Source: Desulfobacteraceae bacterium
GTDB taxonomy: Bacteria > Desulfobacterota > Desulfobacteria > Desulfobacterales > Desulfosarcinaceae
Length of the DNA: 64,000 nt
Assembly: GCA_013003715.1 (NCBI GenBank)
Contig: JABDIN010000033.1
Location: forward strand, 62,001 to 126,000
Reading direction: 5' to 3'
Under the pieces are notes generated by a model that was not told the DNA's origin, ran no database searches, and was given only the letters and a program-made list of their open reading frames with translations. This document shows positions 52,021-60,269 of the stretch, in pieces (positions within the stretch are counted from its first letter, which is position 1; every line of letters begins with the position of its first letter). The position numbers were made by a program, and so were the translations under genes.

Positions 52021-52841
52021 TTATTCATCACGTCCATAACTTCTGTAGTTTTTTTGCAGCGATACGGCTTTTGTGGGGCATGTGGGTACACATACACCGC
52101 ATCCGATGCAGCGGTTAAGGTCAAGCGAGGATTGCTTCTTTTTCGCGGATACACTTGCCGCTCCGACTTGGCAGCGTTTTTCACAATTACCGCATCCATC
52201 GCATGCATCCGTATCTACGACAGCATAAAAATTTGAAGCCCAAAAATCCACTGGTTTAGGTAAATTTTTCTGCATACCGATCATTCCGCGGCAGCATCCG
52301 CAACATGAACAAATGAACTCGGCCTTTTCCGTATTGGATGGTTGAAGAGCCAATCCCTGAATATACTTACATTATGTTGCGGTTGGATACTTTTTGCAAT
52401 CGGAATGGTACGCATCTGCGGAAGTTTTGTACTAAGAAATTCTATTCCAAATTTTTTGTCCAATATATAATCATCAAAATTTCTTATGAACTCCGGCGTA
52501 AGTTTGCCGAGCTGATATTCGTACATCCCCACAACAAGGGGGGCATTACAATAAAGTCTTTTGCCGCCTTTAATTTTTATTTCAATCCCTCCTTTTTCTT
52601 CAGTGCGGCCAAGTAGCTCTGCTAATTTGTCTGGCGATTCAACTATATGCCCGGCTCTTTCAAATACCGTTTCAAGCGGTTCGGGTTTGTAGGTCAAACA
52701 CGTTGCGATTTCAGCCTCTTGGGATGTAAAAATGTGCTTTAGAATTCTTATCTCGGAACCTGACTTTGTGGCGGGAAAGCCTACTGCCTGACTGTCTAAA
52801 TGACGTTGAAGTTTGATATAGACATGTTCACTTTTTTCCAT
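52021..52841 (-). pseudogene. Iron-sulfur (4Fe-4S) protein gene with internal deletion and frameshift
   Basis: Two minus-strand frames that belong to one gene. The first (52841-52281) starts with AGAGGT and ATG and encodes a winged-helix-like N-terminal half ending ...IAKSIQPQHNVSIF. The second (to 52021) begins mid-protein with GLALQPSNTEKAEFICSCCG and ends with two 4Fe-4S motifs (CDGCGNCEKRC and CIGCGVCVPTCP). Intact relatives have about 100 more residues between these parts. The join near 52340-52352 therefore is a deletion that also shifts the frame. The ferredoxin part might still be expressed, but has no clear start. Confidence 0.72.
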
Positions 52842-54666: not shown

Positions 54667-54696
54667 GAGTTAGACGACCGATCGGTCGTCTAACTC
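54667..54696. promoter_or_regulatory. Perfect 30-bp palindrome, TetR-type operator
   Basis: The half site GAGTTAGACGACCGA is followed by its exact complement. Long symmetric GACCG/CGGTC-containing sites of this kind are typical of TetR/AcrR repressors. It lies 26 bases upstream of the -35 of the promoter at 54723 and 158 bases before the SNF2 gene. No tetR gene is in the window. Confidence 0.65.
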
Positions 54697-54722
54697 TCTT
54701 GCCCTTAAAAAAATCCCCTTCA

Positions 54723-54751
54723 TTGACCTTTGCACCTGAATTCCGTATATA
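54723..54751 (+). promoter_or_regulatory. Promoter of the SNF2 unit
   Basis: TTGACC at 54723-54728, a 17-base spacer and TATATA at 54746-54751, about 100 bases before the SNF2 start codon. Both hexamers are good matches to vegetative promoters. Confidence 0.55.
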
Positions 54752-54853
54752 TAGTGTTTGGCCGAAAATTGATGGGCAGGATACGGAACCATCTGTCTAT
54801 GAGGGCCTCAAAAATCATATTTACAGCATATCTGTCAATTTATTGGGTACACG

Positions 54854-57628
54854 ATGACATCCGACGATTTTTTTACACATCTGCGGCGAAAAAAGCCGAT
54901 AATTTACCGGCAGGCCGCCGCTGAGAAGCTGTTTTTTCAGCTTGATTTCGATGAGATCGGCGCCTATGTGCGGATGACGAATACCAAGGGGAAAGAGATT
55001 GTGCCGGCTGCGGAGATGTATGCCGGGACCACCCGTGAAATTCTGCGGTTGATTGAATCCATCCAGGAAAAACAGAGTTTCCAGATTGACTGGGAATCCC
55101 CGTCGGACCGTGTGTATTTGAAAGACAGCACCCCGTTGCTGCGGTTACTCGAAGAAAGCGACAATTTCGTGGGGAACCGCATGAAAAAAGTAAGGTTTGC
55201 GGAAAAACCCGGCACCCTTTCCGTTCGTGTAACCAAGGCAAAGGACCGGATCCAGGGAACACCGGTGCTGGTGCATCGGCGCAAACTGCTGAGCAATCCA
55301 CAATTGATCGACGAATCCCATGTCTATTGCCAATCCACCATTTATCGTGTCACCCCCATGGGAAGCCGGAGCGGCTACCTGAAATATTTTGAGACGGCGC
55401 TACCCGCATCCCTTCTTGAAAGATATCTTTCCCTGCTGTTTTCTCATATCGAAGGTGTCCAGGTGGATTATGACGGATATCAAGTGGAAACAGGCAGGCC
55501 CATGAGAACACAGCCCACCTTGATTTTTGAGCAGGTGGACGATGATGATACCCTTCACTTGCGTCTGTCCGGCTCGTTTCCGGGCTTTGATGCGGACTTT
55601 TTCGATGAGTTTGAAATCAACCGTGTGGCCACGGTGAACGACGCGGAAAAAACCATATCGGTTTGCGAAGTGATTCATGAAGATACCGCGGCCTCCTACA
55701 AGGACATCCGGCGGCGACTGATGCAGCATCGACGTGCCCTGAAGACCGATCGGGATTTTTTCGCGGATGATAATTTTTTTATCATTCAACCCGGATTGGC
55801 GGATCGCTTTCTTCGGTATGAACTCCCCGAACTGGTCGGCCGTTATACGTTTTTAGGGGCTGAACGCCTGACGTCATTCAAGGTAAGGCCTGTAAAACCG
55901 AAATTGAATCTCACCCTTTCCCATGGCATTGATTTTCTGGAGGGTGATGCCGCTCTCTCCATAGATGGTGAGAAATTCGCTCTGTTTGACGTACTGAACC
56001 AATATAAAAAAAACGCTTACATTACGTTGAGCGACGGTACTTACGGGTTGGTGAACCAGAGTTACATCAATAAATTAAGCCGTATCTTCAAGCGTAAAAA
56101 AAAAGGTGTGACGGTGTCGTTTTTTGATCTGCCGGCAGTTGAAGAGCTGATTGATGAGAAGATTGCCGGTGAATCCTTTGATCATGCGCGCAAGGTGTTT
56201 CTGGGGTTCAATACCCTGAGCCGGCAACGCACCCGTTACCCGAAACTCAAGGCCAAGCTCAGAACCTACCAGAAACAGGGTTACAAATGGGCGACTTATT
56301 TGAAGGAAAACAAGCTGGGCGGTTGCCTGGCGGATGACATGGGGTTGGGGAAAACCATTCAAGCCATTGCCCTGCTGGCATCCGTGTATCCGGCAGCGAA
56401 ACAACCCTCCCTGGTGGTCATGCCGCGAAGTCTGTTGTTCAACTGGGAAAACGAGATCGACAGGTTTTATCCGGAGTTGACCCATTATACCTACCATGGA
56501 AACAAACGGGATATAAAAGAAGCCACATCAAACCGCGTGATTCTCACCACATATGCCATGGTGAGAAATGATATTGAAACATTCCGGTCCATCAAATTCC
56601 ACTACATTATTCTGGATGAGTCCCAGAACATTAAAAACATGGAGTCCCAGATATCAAAGGCGGTCATGCTTCTGGACGGGGCACATCGGCTGGCACTCAG
56701 CGGTACACCCATAGAGAATAATATCAGTGAATTATATGCCTTATTCCGGTTTTTAAATCCGGCCATGTTCGGATCGGCCCGGGATTTTAACCGGGACTAT
56801 CTGGTGCCGATTCAAAAAGAAGACGACAAGGAGGTGCGGCGGGAGTTGAAAAAAAAGATTTATCCGTTCATTCTTCGCCGTCTGAAACAAGAGGTTTTAA
56901 AGGATCTTCCGGACAAGGTTGAAAAAACCATTTTCGTGGAGATGACACCCGAGCAACAAAATTATTATGAACAGCGCCGGCTGTTTTATCACCATGCCAT
57001 CCGGCAGCAAATTTCAGAGAATGGATTTCAAAAGTCCCGGTTCTTTATCCTTCAAGCCATGGGTGAGTTGAGACAAATTGCCGCCATTCCCGAGATGCGA
57101 AGTGAAAACGGCATCCGCTCCCCAAAACGGCCCATCCTCATGGAGCAGGTCGGCGAAGCCATCGCCAATTCGCATAAAGTGCTGATATTCGCTAATTATC
57201 TGCATGCCCTGGATTGCCTTTCACAGGATTTGAACGAACTGGAGATTGACCATCTGCTCATGACCGGCGCCACGCGGGACCGCAAAACACTGGTGGAACA
57301 ATTCCAGACGGATGAAACATTGAAGGTTTTTTTGATGACATTGAAAACCGGGGGCATCGGATTGAATTTAACGGCAGCCGATCATATTTTCATATTCGAT
57401 CCCTGGTGGAACCGGGCTGCCGAGAATCAAGCCATTGACCGCACCCACCGCATCGGCCAGAAAAACACCGTATTCAGTTACCGTTTGATCACCCGGGGTA
57501 CCATTGAGGAGAAGATACTCGAACTCCAGGAATATAAGAAAGCGCTGTTCGATGAGTTGATCACCAGCGACGGCGCATCCTTGAAATCGCTGGATGAAAC
57601 CGATGTGGAATTTGTATTGGGCGTGTAA
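54854..57628 (+). CDS. SNF2-family DNA-dependent ATPase
   Basis: A 924-residue Swi2/Snf2 ATPase. Residues 1 to about 470 are an N-terminal region with no domain I recognise, apart from mixed alpha/beta segments. The two RecA-like lobes follow: Walker A DDMGLGKT at 494-501, motif II DESQ at 588-591, LSGTPIENNISELYALFRFL, and the second lobe with LKTGGIGLNLTAADH, DPWWNRAAENQAIDRTHRIG and motif VI near 863. Such proteins move along double-stranded DNA and remodel protein-DNA complexes. No nuclease domain is fused. The ribosome binding site is weak. The next gene begins 49 bases later and is probably its partner. Confidence 0.93.
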   Translation: MTSDDFFTHLRRKKPIIYRQAAAEKLFFQLDFDEIGAYVRMTNTKGKEIVPAAEMYAGTTREILRLIESIQEKQSFQIDWESPSDRVYLKDSTPLLRLLEESDNFVGNRMKKVRFAEKPGTLSVRVTKAKDRIQGTPVLVHRRKLLSNPQLIDESHVYCQSTIYRVTPMGSRSGYLKYFETALPASLLERYLSLLFSHIEGVQVDYDGYQVETGRPMRTQPTLIFEQVDDDDTLHLRLSGSFPGFDADFFDEFEINRVATVNDAEKTISVCEVIHEDTAASYKDIRRRLMQHRRALKTDRDFFADDNFFIIQPGLADRFLRYELPELVGRYTFLGAERLTSFKVRPVKPKLNLTLSHGIDFLEGDAALSIDGEKFALFDVLNQYKKNAYITLSDGTYGLVNQSYINKLSRIFKRKKKGVTVSFFDLPAVEELIDEKIAGESFDHARKVFLGFNTLSRQRTRYPKLKAKLRTYQKQGYKWATYLKENKLGGCLADDMGLGKTIQAIALLASVYPAAKQPSLVVMPRSLLFNWENEIDRFYPELTHYTYHGNKRDIKEATSNRVILTTYAMVRNDIETFRSIKFHYIILDESQNIKNMESQISKAVMLLDGAHRLALSGTPIENNISELYALFRFLNPAMFGSARDFNRDYLVPIQKEDDKEVRRELKKKIYPFILRRLKQEVLKDLPDKVEKTIFVEMTPEQQNYYEQRRLFYHHAIRQQISENGFQKSRFFILQAMGELRQIAAIPEMRSENGIRSPKRPILMEQVGEAIANSHKVLIFANYLHALDCLSQDLNELEIDHLLMTGATRDRKTLVEQFQTDETLKVFLMTLKTGGIGLNLTAADHIFIFDPWWNRAAENQAIDRTHRIGQKNTVFSYRLITRGTIEEKILELQEYKKALFDELITSDGASLKSLDETDVEFVLGV

Positions 57629-57677
57629 TTCCCTGCATATCTGCATCATATGCGAATGTTTTTTGGTTTGGTAATAG

Positions 57678-60269
57678 ATGAATCTGAAACAGATACCCAA
57701 TAATTTCGAGACTTTTTACCCCACCATCGACGATCCTGAGGGATGGGTTCATGAGCACTATTTGTGCACCAATTGCGGCAAGAACGCCATCCGGCCGAAA
57801 ATAAAGATACCCAGGGGGCGATTATGCAATGAATGCGTCGGGCGATTTTTTAAGCGCAAAGGTCTTGAGATTGATGCCGCAACCTTGTCTTTGTCCGAGA
57901 TTACCCGTCAACTTTTGGGGACGAACCAGGTCTGCCAGCGGTTGATTCTGCTTTGGGGTTTCAAAGGGATAATGCGGCAATATGCAAAAGGCACCACTGA
58001 ATCGGCACACTCGCTCTTTAAATCGCTCGTACCGAATATGGGATTTGTGACACCGCATCCTTTGGCCCACGCCGTGCGTGAAGCCGCGGTCCGGGCTTGC
58101 GTTGCCGCGGGGGAAGGTGTGCTTCCCCACCTTTTGGCCGTCCGGAAACCGGAACCCTGGCAATTTTTTGCCAATATCATTTTAAGCGCCGGATCCATTG
58201 CCCCGTCCGATGAGAAAGTTCGGCGGTTGATAAAAAAAGGGGCCGCAGACGCCAGCCCCAATGTGCGCAGAATGGTATTGGTGGTTTTATCCGATACTGA
58301 GAATGAATGGGCCAGGCATTTGTTTGAAGCCCTGCTGGTGGACACGAACCCGCTGGTTCGTGAAGCCGCAGCTGAATTAAGCTTCCGGAGATCGCAGGTG
58401 AAAAGGGCGTCCGGGAAAGCAGCACCGGCCCAGAAGAAGAAGGCCCGGCATCCGAAACAATCCCCATTGGAGAAATTACTAGACCGATTCTATGCGGCGG
58501 ACTTTCTTCAATCCATATACGAGGCGTATCTGCATCGATTCAAAGATTGTTTCCCGGACAACCGGAAGGCAACACCGGTGCGCCGGAAGCCCAGGAAATC
58601 GGACCTGGTGTGGCTGCTGGCCCATGTGTATTCGGATAAAGTATTGTTTCTGAAGCTGCTGTCAGACCTGCCGAGGGCAGTGGAAAAGGTGCTGCACCGG
58701 TTGGTGTGGGATGAATTTGAATGCGATGTGGAAGATTTGCAATCGTCATTGGATGCCCAAATCGTCAATACCCGCAAAGAGCCATACTATGATGAAATGT
58801 ACGTGCATTTAAATCCGGATTACTTTATTTTCACGCTCCATTCCACCTTCGACTACCGGCGGGATTGGCGCAAACCCCAAAGATTGAACCTTCGCCTGCC
58901 GGAAGATTTAAGAACGCTGTTTAAAACGTATCTGCCGCCGCCCAGGGAATTCGACTACATACCGCTGGAGCAACCTGAGAGAACCGCTTATTTGTTTGAA
59001 GACCGTGGAGAGACCCAGGAGAGGCTTGCGGTTCTATCCCGTTATGTGCAACAGGGAAATGTAAAATACTCCAAATCCGGTAATAGGATTCTGATCGGTT
59101 CCTTGAAAAAGATGAAGGAGTATTTGCATATCAAGGAATTCTATTCGGAAGAGGATAAGGATCTACGATATCTGAGAACCCTGTTGATTGCGGAATTTAT
59201 CTCCGAAGATGCCCTGAAAACGGATATCCGGTCTCCCGAGGACTTGAAAAGCCTGTTCGCGGGATATTTCGATGGTTCCAATTTCAAGTACTATCATGCA
59301 AAGGATATGCTGGCGCACCTCAAGGGGGGAAGTCATGACGATTGGAATTATGAAAAGCGGGATATGAGGGTTCGTGGGGCCATGTGGCTCATGGTGCAAA
59401 ATCTGATGGTTGACCAATGGATCTCTTTGAAGAACATTTTTAAGTTCGCCCGGTACCGGGGCCTGGATCTGGAGGTCCTGGACAGGGGTACCGCCGAGCA
59501 TTATCTCTATTTCAGAGGCGCTATCCGCGACAGCGGGGATAAACTGATCGAGGACATGCGTATCCACATTGAACCATCCATCTATGATGAGGCCGTTATC
59601 CACCCCTACCTCCGGGGAATGATGTACCTGTTTGCCGCATTCGGTCTGCTGGATATTGCTTACGACCATCCGGAACACAAGAATCTGCAGACCACCGGCA
59701 AGCCCTACCTGAGCGTGTTCGATGGGCTGTCTTTTATCCGTTTGACCCATCTTGGTGCTTACGTGTTCGGTCAGCAGGACAGCTATGCTATCGATTTTAC
59801 GGAAAGCGCGGGTGACCTGGTACTGGACGAGAATCGGTTGATCATCTATCTGACGCAAAAGGACAGGTTAAAGAGCCTGTTGCTTGAAAATATTGGCGAA
59901 CGGGTCACGGATACCTGTTACCGGGTGAATTTCCAGACCTTCCTGAAAGACTGTGACACCATCGGTGAAATCCGGCGAAAGATAACCTTTTTTAAAGAAC
60001 ACATATCCGACCGGCCGCCATCCGTATGGGCGGTTTTTTTAAATGAGATCACCTCAAAGTTGAATCCCATGGAACCGGTGGAGAATTATGCCGTATTCAA
60101 GCTTAATCCAAGTCGGGAGCTGGTATCATTGTTCGCCACGGACAAGGTCCTGAAAAAGTATGTACGAAAGGCAGAAGATTTCAATATCATCGTCGAAAAC
60201 CGGCATATCAGCAAAGTAAAAAAGCGATTGCAGACTTTTGGATATTTTATGGATCCCACCCAGAAATGA
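57678..60269 (+). CDS. Large zinc-binding protein of unknown function, partner of the SNF2 ATPase
   Basis: An 863-residue protein I cannot assign. It opens with a four-Cys zinc motif, C30-x2-C33-x16-C50-x2-C53. Residues about 110-250 look like HEAT/ARM-type helical repeats (AVREAAVRACVAAGEGVLPH, SPNVRRMVLVVLSDTENEW), with a basic linker near 240-265. The middle (about 270-600) is helical and charged. The last 150 residues (ENRLIIYLTQKDRLKSLLLE ... VENRHISKVKKRLQTFGYFM) resemble by eye the XPB-type N-terminal helicase-associated domain, but this is weak. Right after the SNF2 gene, it is a likely DNA- or protein-binding partner. Start by weak signal (GGTAATAG). Confidence 0.85.
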   Translation: MNLKQIPNNFETFYPTIDDPEGWVHEHYLCTNCGKNAIRPKIKIPRGRLCNECVGRFFKRKGLEIDAATLSLSEITRQLLGTNQVCQRLILLWGFKGIMRQYAKGTTESAHSLFKSLVPNMGFVTPHPLAHAVREAAVRACVAAGEGVLPHLLAVRKPEPWQFFANIILSAGSIAPSDEKVRRLIKKGAADASPNVRRMVLVVLSDTENEWARHLFEALLVDTNPLVREAAAELSFRRSQVKRASGKAAPAQKKKARHPKQSPLEKLLDRFYAADFLQSIYEAYLHRFKDCFPDNRKATPVRRKPRKSDLVWLLAHVYSDKVLFLKLLSDLPRAVEKVLHRLVWDEFECDVEDLQSSLDAQIVNTRKEPYYDEMYVHLNPDYFIFTLHSTFDYRRDWRKPQRLNLRLPEDLRTLFKTYLPPPREFDYIPLEQPERTAYLFEDRGETQERLAVLSRYVQQGNVKYSKSGNRILIGSLKKMKEYLHIKEFYSEEDKDLRYLRTLLIAEFISEDALKTDIRSPEDLKSLFAGYFDGSNFKYYHAKDMLAHLKGGSHDDWNYEKRDMRVRGAMWLMVQNLMVDQWISLKNIFKFARYRGLDLEVLDRGTAEHYLYFRGAIRDSGDKLIEDMRIHIEPSIYDEAVIHPYLRGMMYLFAAFGLLDIAYDHPEHKNLQTTGKPYLSVFDGLSFIRLTHLGAYVFGQQDSYAIDFTESAGDLVLDENRLIIYLTQKDRLKSLLLENIGERVTDTCYRVNFQTFLKDCDTIGEIRRKITFFKEHISDRPPSVWAVFLNEITSKLNPMEPVENYAVFKLNPSRELVSLFATDKVLKKYVRKAEDFNIIVENRHISKVKKRLQTFGYFMDPTQK

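Follow-up and report, generated by a model that had tools for sequence, protein, structure and literature searches.

This study concerns a two-gene locus in a 64,000-nucleotide stretch of DNA (hereafter the window) from a Desulfobacteraceae bacterium (assembly GCA_013003715.1, contig JABDIN010000033.1, positions 62,001 to 126,000 of the forward strand), whose genome comprises 5.5 Mb in 115 contigs. The first gene, at 54854-57628 on the + strand, encodes an SNF2-family protein of 924 residues and the second, at 57678-60269 on the same strand, encodes a partner protein of 863 residues. Both open reading frames (ORFs) are intact and are separated by 49 nt, the arrangement that an earlier note on this DNA had described. 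The SNF2 gene and the partner gene form a genuine conserved two-gene unit, and the partner matches no curated family.

Judged by family matches and motifs, the first protein is unambiguously an SNF2 (superfamily 2, SF2) DNA translocase. It matches the Pfam families PF00176 at 1.2e-73 (248.2 bits) and PF00271 at 4.5e-17 (62.7 bits), and its translation contains the motifs DDMGLGKT (Walker A), DESQ and THRIGQ (motif VI), as expected of the complete motor that the earlier note had claimed. The motor occupies residues 461-924; structural searches gave no fold assignment for the N-terminal half (residues 1-460), their result lists being filled by the motor.

The linkage of the two genes was examined by scanning genome contigs with profiles of the partner. 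A first scan gave no loci and a second scan, made with a closer alignment, gave 16. An SNF2 orthologue lies directly upstream of the partner on the same strand in 13 of these; one locus (L047) lacks it, and in two others (L050 and L055) the contig ends first, in the case of L050 at 307 nt upstream of the partner. Together with the window, a locus of Fusobacterium vincentii (L020), a locus of genome G375 (L033) and five loci from the genus of genome G324 (L080-L084), these make 21 linked loci, in which L028, L029 and L030 are counted once because they are the same contigs as L040, L041 and L051. The linked loci are found in Thermodesulfobacteriota, Pseudomonadota, Calditrichota, Omnitrophota, Bacteroidota and Fusobacteriota as well as in KSB1 and UASB270, with many of the records being metagenome bins that may be misplaced taxonomically. 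The spacing of the genes ranges from -38 to 171 nt at the 15 loci measured, and the SNF2 protein of the window is 47-58% identical to 12 linked orthologues. The two-gene unit suspected in the earlier note is therefore upheld by linkage across at least six named phyla. The partner did not prove to be a member of a housekeeping family and the genes did not prove to be unlinked elsewhere, the two outcomes that the note had named as counting against its idea.

The partner is rare, being present in 1 of 30 genomes of the family and, counting any match at 1e-3, in 11 of 395 genomes of the phylum, where some matches cover the HEAT repeats or the N-terminal module only. When 297 genomes of the phylum around G324, a sample that overlaps the 395, were searched with a profile, six matched at 1e-30, including G325 (N-terminal module only) and G107 (without a close SNF2). 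With the SNF2 protein as the query, 15 of the 395 genomes matched at 1e-120, six with 777-2085 bits and nine with 438 bits or less. The partner is present in all six of the phylum genomes that hold a close SNF2 orthologue (at least 777 bits). In genome G173 both genes are cut at the ends of different contigs, where adjacency cannot be judged. The Fusobacterium vincentii record (NZ_CP084075.1) is a 2.1-Mb sequence that is filed as a plasmid and carries one annotated feature; its size and a gene for DNA polymerase III alpha next to the pair point to a chromosome.

The distance matrices of the SNF2 protein and the partner are correlated (Mantel r 0.87, p 1e-4; 14 loci, 91 pairs), which in part reflects shared species history. 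The set omits L041, which is incomplete, and L040, which is broken by a stop. Over the 14 loci the mean identity is 54% for the SNF2 protein (66% in the motor and 42% in the N-terminal half) and 29% for the partner. The groups that are starred in the SNF2 tree (L042 with L043, L044 with L045, and these two with L051) reappear in the partner tree, which contains one further starred pair (L052 with G375) that is flagged as long branches meeting; most other forks are not resolved in either tree. Additionally, the ratio of nonsynonymous to synonymous substitution rates (dN/dS) was determined for six pairs of relatives and was 0.05-0.14 for the motor and 0.21-0.40 for the partner, the partner exceeding the motor in all six, with some dS values near saturation and the L040-L041 motor value taken from a C-terminal piece only. 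Neighboring genes gave 0.06-0.20 (nine comparisons from five of the pairs). Purifying selection acts on both genes, and the partner evolves faster. At L040 (2113-4975) the SNF2 gene of a metagenome-assembled genome is broken by an in-frame stop and the partner is intact, which reflects decay or a sequencing error.

The sample contained no other genome from the genus to which the window belongs, and inheritance was followed in the genus of G324. There, the partner is present in six of seven genomes, and two groups of genomes have kept synteny with neighbors that are 70-98% identical. It follows from this presence and from the conserved flanks that the locus is stably inherited in that genus. 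The idea that the pair consists of two ordinary genes that are neighbors by chance and have no joint function could appeal to relatives of the partner that stand beside guaA or guaB without an SNF2 gene. It is largely refuted by the 21 linked loci in unrelated phyla, the co-occurrence in six of six genomes, the Mantel correlation and a fusion of the partner's N-terminal module to an SNF2 motor, and we consider it barely credible.

The partner matches nothing over the cut-off in NCBIfam or Pfam and nothing in PADLOC at E<=1, and sequence comparison with solved structures gave no convincing relative. Family scans of the window protein and of the members of alignment A3 detected no catalytic domain, in agreement with the earlier note, which had recognized no catalytic site. 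The protein can be divided into a zinc-ribbon and HEAT module (residues ~8-255), a middle module (residues 262-425) and a core (residues ~425-863) with a predicted likeness to p52.

The N-terminal module (57699-58442, + strand) consists of a zinc-ribbon-like site followed by HEAT repeats. The pairs C30-x2-C33 and C50-x2-C53 are present as the note had reported, and by eye the four cysteines are kept in eight of the nine module-bearing members of A3 (L048 lacks one). HEAT_2 matches the window partner at a sub-threshold 8.3e-5, one relative at 9.9e-8 and 6 of 16 A3 members at E<=1. In the structural model (mean predicted local distance difference test score 82.5, predicted template modelling score 0.60) helical repeats span residues ~72-244, and it is this part that solved HEAT proteins match, so that the HEAT-like repeats proposed in the note are also supported. 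The module is optional, as long partners of 850-904 residues, including that of the window, carry it and short partners of 597-632 residues do not. Both forms coexist in one genus (L080 and L081 are long, L082 is short). At L036 (8966-13945) a single ORF of 1659 residues combines the zinc and HEAT module, a long unassigned middle and an SNF2 motor of another subfamily; the N-terminal module matches this fusion at 99.9% with hhalign and at 5e-53 with hmmsearch in a small ORF set.

The middle module (58461-58952, + strand) is a candidate for the part that binds the motor, because its profile matched partners that are paired with SNF2 but missed every SNF2-free relative listed. The longer alignments obtained with L023 and L085, however, extend into the module. 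SNF2-free forms of 690 residues, which lack the middle module, adjoin guaA (L031) or guaB (L032 and L034, the latter cut by a contig end). A second motor beside these three relatives was considered and rejected, since their loci gave no match to SNF2 or XPB. Genome G424 has, besides its paired locus, a core relative of 697 residues on another contig (L085:6913-9006).

The core connects the partner to XPB. With hhalign, where the figures given are single profile comparisons and not database searches, the core matches a protein encoded 1 nt upstream of XPB in Gloeocapsopsis (L023) at 98.9%. At the level of sequence profiles, this comparison demonstrates that the core is related to the Gloeocapsopsis XPB neighbor. 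The core also matches a Cupriavidus protein beside Wadjet at 99.1% and a five-member plasmid set (A7) that includes this protein at 99.9%. A Rhodococcus relative (L022) matches the core profile at 9.5e-27 (small ORF set), reaches 46.8 bits against a cut-off of 34.2 for PF13625 and has a weak match to the N-terminal part of the XPB model (2.2e-4). PF13625 matches below the threshold were found in the SNF2-linked L033 (0.0012), the XPB-linked L023 (2e-7) and L024 (1.1e-5). Those in L033 and L023 lie in corresponding places, and they map to an approximate segment of the window partner at residues ~710-835 (59805-60182, + strand) that appears to resemble the XPB N-terminal domain (NTD) and the p52 clutch. 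PF13625 sits at the N-terminus of bacterial XPB, and PMC6422496 places the NTD at the N-terminus of XPB. In our reading, the PF13625 domain of bacterial XPB would correspond to the NTD.

The fold of the core and its likeness to p52 are predicted from the structural model. The four best Foldseek chains for the partner come from TFIIH or pre-initiation-complex entries (2.7e-5 to 5.6e-4) and are followed by HEAT proteins. We take 7zs9_2 and 7o4i_2 to be Tfb2 and 8ebt_D and 6nmi_D to be p52. Chains 8ebt_A and 6nmi_A are annotated as XPB, and chain D in these two entries is therefore another subunit. With VIA, two chains, one of a pre-initiation complex and one of a repair incision complex (7egb_6 and 9pd3_A, both presumably XPB), match residues 709-861 with Z values of 9.9-10.0.

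Several results weigh against a kinship of the core with p52 and XPB and against a clutch-like role. The hhalign comparison of the core profile gave 0.2% with XPB itself, 2.3% with the protein upstream of XPB in genome G014 and 0.1% with 'helicase-associated' proteins near XPB in Deinococcus, Actinomyces and Paenibacillus; these three negative comparisons, though run as tests, also provide a rough background for the positive ones. Pfam scans of the 16 A3 members at E<=1 gave no PF13625, and the 20 families listed include no Tfb2 family. The four TFIIH-entry chains have template modelling scores (TM-scores) of 0.13-0.27 and root-mean-square deviations of 20-22 Å, so the global likeness is low, and they fall outside the 50 VIA matches, which HEAT proteins fill, though this absence is not itself counter-evidence. 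A Pfam scan detected no PF13625 domain in the window SNF2 protein, a domain with which a clutch could pair. Finally, genome G107 (62% complete) has an SNF2-free core form and no SNF2 match at 1e-120, and this form and the other SNF2-free relatives indicate that the core may act without this motor.

A profile search of solved structures with the core gave only weak zinc-finger matches and, with the comparison to XPB at 0.2%, the idea that sequence directly links the core with XPB or p52 was rejected. Because the TM-scores are low, the likeness to p52 is drawn from local structure and domain order, and because the sequence test failed, the partner is not filed as a member of the p52 family. XPB genes near 'helicase-associated' proteins were seen in Paenibacillus (L089:5197-7170), Deinococcus (L086:5585-8032) and Actinomyces (L087:80-2623). 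In Paenibacillus and Deinococcus these associated proteins have matches to the N-terminal part of the XPB model and are possibly a second XPB-clutch family.

Taken with these reservations, the pair is probably an ATP-driven double-stranded DNA (dsDNA) translocase of two subunits, in which a p52-like partner regulates an SNF2 motor. The SNF2 protein would be the motor on dsDNA. The partner, in which no enzymatic domain was detected, would act in the manner of TFIIH p52 (Tfb2), its C-terminal core, in which the XPB-NTD/clutch-like domain lies, docking on the motor. Contacts of the partner with the motor lobes would set the rate of ATP hydrolysis, either by activation or as a speed limit. The zinc and HEAT module, where present, may be a detachable targeting or scaffold arm that recognizes a structure on DNA or on bound protein. 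Translocation along DNA would then serve to remodel proteins or evict them, or to open sites of damage or stalling. The physical complex, the regulation of the motor and the cellular role are what we infer. According to PMC6422496, the p52 clutch and the XPB NTD have the same fold, and p52 both recruits XPB and stimulates the XPB ATPase; PMC7708078 describes p52/p8 also as a speed limiter of XPB. Docking and rate control by the partner are proposed by analogy with this. The contact between motor and clutch must differ in detail from that in TFIIH because the SNF2 protein has no detectable PF13625.

The pair thus resembles XPB-p52 (Ssl2-Tfb2) of TFIIH in combining an SF2 dsDNA translocase with a non-enzymatic partner whose C-terminal segment is predicted to be XPB-NTD/clutch-like, and differs from it in its SNF2-type motor, in the additional zinc and HEAT module and in the lack of a Tfb2 match in Pfam. 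It resembles bacterial XPB with its neighbor in that the Gloeocapsopsis XPB has a core homologue directly upstream, whereas the motor of the window is SNF2 and the core profile misses the neighbors in Deinococcus, Actinomyces and Paenibacillus. Among the ideas of the earlier note, that of a remodeller equipped with an adaptor of its own agrees best with the results. The unit has a dedicated adaptor and matches no NCBIfam system over its cut-off, and the partner has no PADLOC match. Genome maintenance or transcription-coupled work is the most likely role, with about an even chance of being correct.

Defense against foreign DNA is the second likeliest role and has a clearly lower probability. 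The earlier note had put forward a DNA-sensing or defense-like complex. In a system of two genes directed against phages or plasmids, the SNF2 protein would scan DNA, the fast-evolving partner would recognize a foreign trait, and replication or transcription would be blocked without a nuclease. The dN/dS values of the partner, above those of the motor in every pair, and its patchy distribution fit this proposal. The motor domains also resemble those of ZorD, DpdE and DrmD in NCBIfam and PADLOC scans, and ZorD is the best Foldseek match of the motor model. The cut-offs of these models were missed by far, however, as the SNF2 protein reaches 220.8 bits of 1500 for ZorD (NF041790), 121.2 of 950 for DrmD (NF038318) and 44.9 of 500 for DpdE (NF041062). 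The pair therefore shares an SNF2 motor with Zorya, DISARM and Dpd and differs from them in that it is accompanied by no further gene and no detected nuclease domain.

Distant relatives of the core are found on plasmids, directly upstream of Wadjet genes in two Cupriavidus loci (L024:8630-10669 and L026:8891-10675) and near Hachiman in Polaromonas (L025:8900-10675). At L048 a PADLOC candidate-defense gene adjoins the pair. The earlier note had suggested counting defense genes nearby, and this was done with ORFs of at least 110 residues at 12 of the 21 loci. Among the 25 of 118 PADLOC families listed, none occurs in more than 2 of the 125 neighbors at 1e-10, a count that has no background control, and so it answers the suggestion only in part. 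The families listed include type II methyltransferase, restriction enzyme, candidate-defense, helicase, MADS and Pycsar-cyclase models, and some are likely cross-matches. Against a defense role, family scans found no nuclease or other effector with the pair and PADLOC gave no match for the partner. The identified neighbors are mainly metabolic, regulatory and transport genes that differ between loci, and within one genus six of seven genomes hold the partner, with synteny kept in two groups. A 246-residue calcineurin-like phosphoesterase gene upstream of SNF2 (L044 and L045) was considered as a third component and rejected, as homologues recur in those two close relatives only. No relative of the partner was found in phage records, and pattern matches in viral contigs gave no confirmed relative; a phage-borne factor was rejected on these searches. 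Phage and plasmid records do contain broader SNF2 relatives. With no effector, with neighbors of this kind and with synteny kept within a genus, defense does not hold as the leading idea and, as a mechanism, we regard it as rather unlikely.

A third proposal is that the SNF2 motor and its adaptor act on stalled RNA polymerase in a RapA-like recycling of transcription. The matches of the motor in the Protein Data Bank (PDB) include CSB/Rad26, which act on stalled polymerase. The work of p52/XPB in transcription is also in keeping with this proposal, and the zinc and HEAT arm could bind protein. On the other side, the RapA model (NF003426) gave 27.7 bits against a cut-off of 576, family scans detected no RNA-polymerase-binding domain, and no transcription theme is apparent among the neighbors. 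The pair shares an SNF2 motor with RapA/HepA and falls far short of the RapA cut-off, and we know of no adaptor of the partner's kind for RapA/HepA. We therefore consider this proposal improbable, more so than defense, and retain the p52-regulated translocase as the preferred reading.

The surroundings of the pair in the window were also examined. A perfect 30-mer palindrome is present upstream of the SNF2 gene at 54667-54696 and is TetR-operator-like by eye, as the earlier note had stated, and chance would not be expected to produce its 24-bp core within the window. The genome contains no second exact match to its 20-bp core pattern and one site, on contig C61, that differs by two mismatches. 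None of 13 relatives has a perfect palindrome of at least 14 bp within 400 bp upstream of the SNF2 gene; L041 is left out, as hardly any of its upstream sequence is present. Because the 13 checkable relatives lack such a palindrome, it is local to this genome and outside the conserved unit. It was rejected as an operator of the system, having neither an exact second copy of its core nor a counterpart in the relatives. A promoter common to both genes had also been claimed, which was not supported as sigma-70-like sites are no more frequent than in shuffled sequence; no terminator-like site was found between the two genes. In family scans the immediate neighbors, an upstream class-II cAMP phosphodiesterase and a downstream aspartokinase-like gene, look intact, and the latter is followed by an EamA transporter and an aminotransferase. 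Two frames overlap at 52021-52841 on the - strand; one contains 4Fe-4S motifs, the other has no match, and together they suggest a frameshifted or split ferredoxin-type gene. The decayed neighbors described in the note are thus supported for the ferredoxin relic, whereas no RelE was found among the window ORFs scanned and the nearest genes look intact.

We recognized no description of such an SNF2-partner pair in the open-licence full-text literature. PMC3353954 stated in 2012 that no bacterial homologue of p52 or p44 had been found, and for that reason bacterial XPB was thought there to act without a TFIIH-like complex. An SNF2 pair with TFIIH-like Foldseek matches and a relative beside bacterial XPB makes that statement testable. 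The pair also represents a minimal two-protein system in which to study the control of a DNA translocase by a non-enzymatic clutch. More tentatively, and with somewhat less than an even chance of being right, bacteria may have a TFIIH-like module in which a p52-type clutch works with XPB in some lineages and with SNF2 here. The p52 fold would then be older than eukaryotic TFIIH or exchanged with it, and the clutch would be a general and interchangeable regulator of dsDNA translocases.

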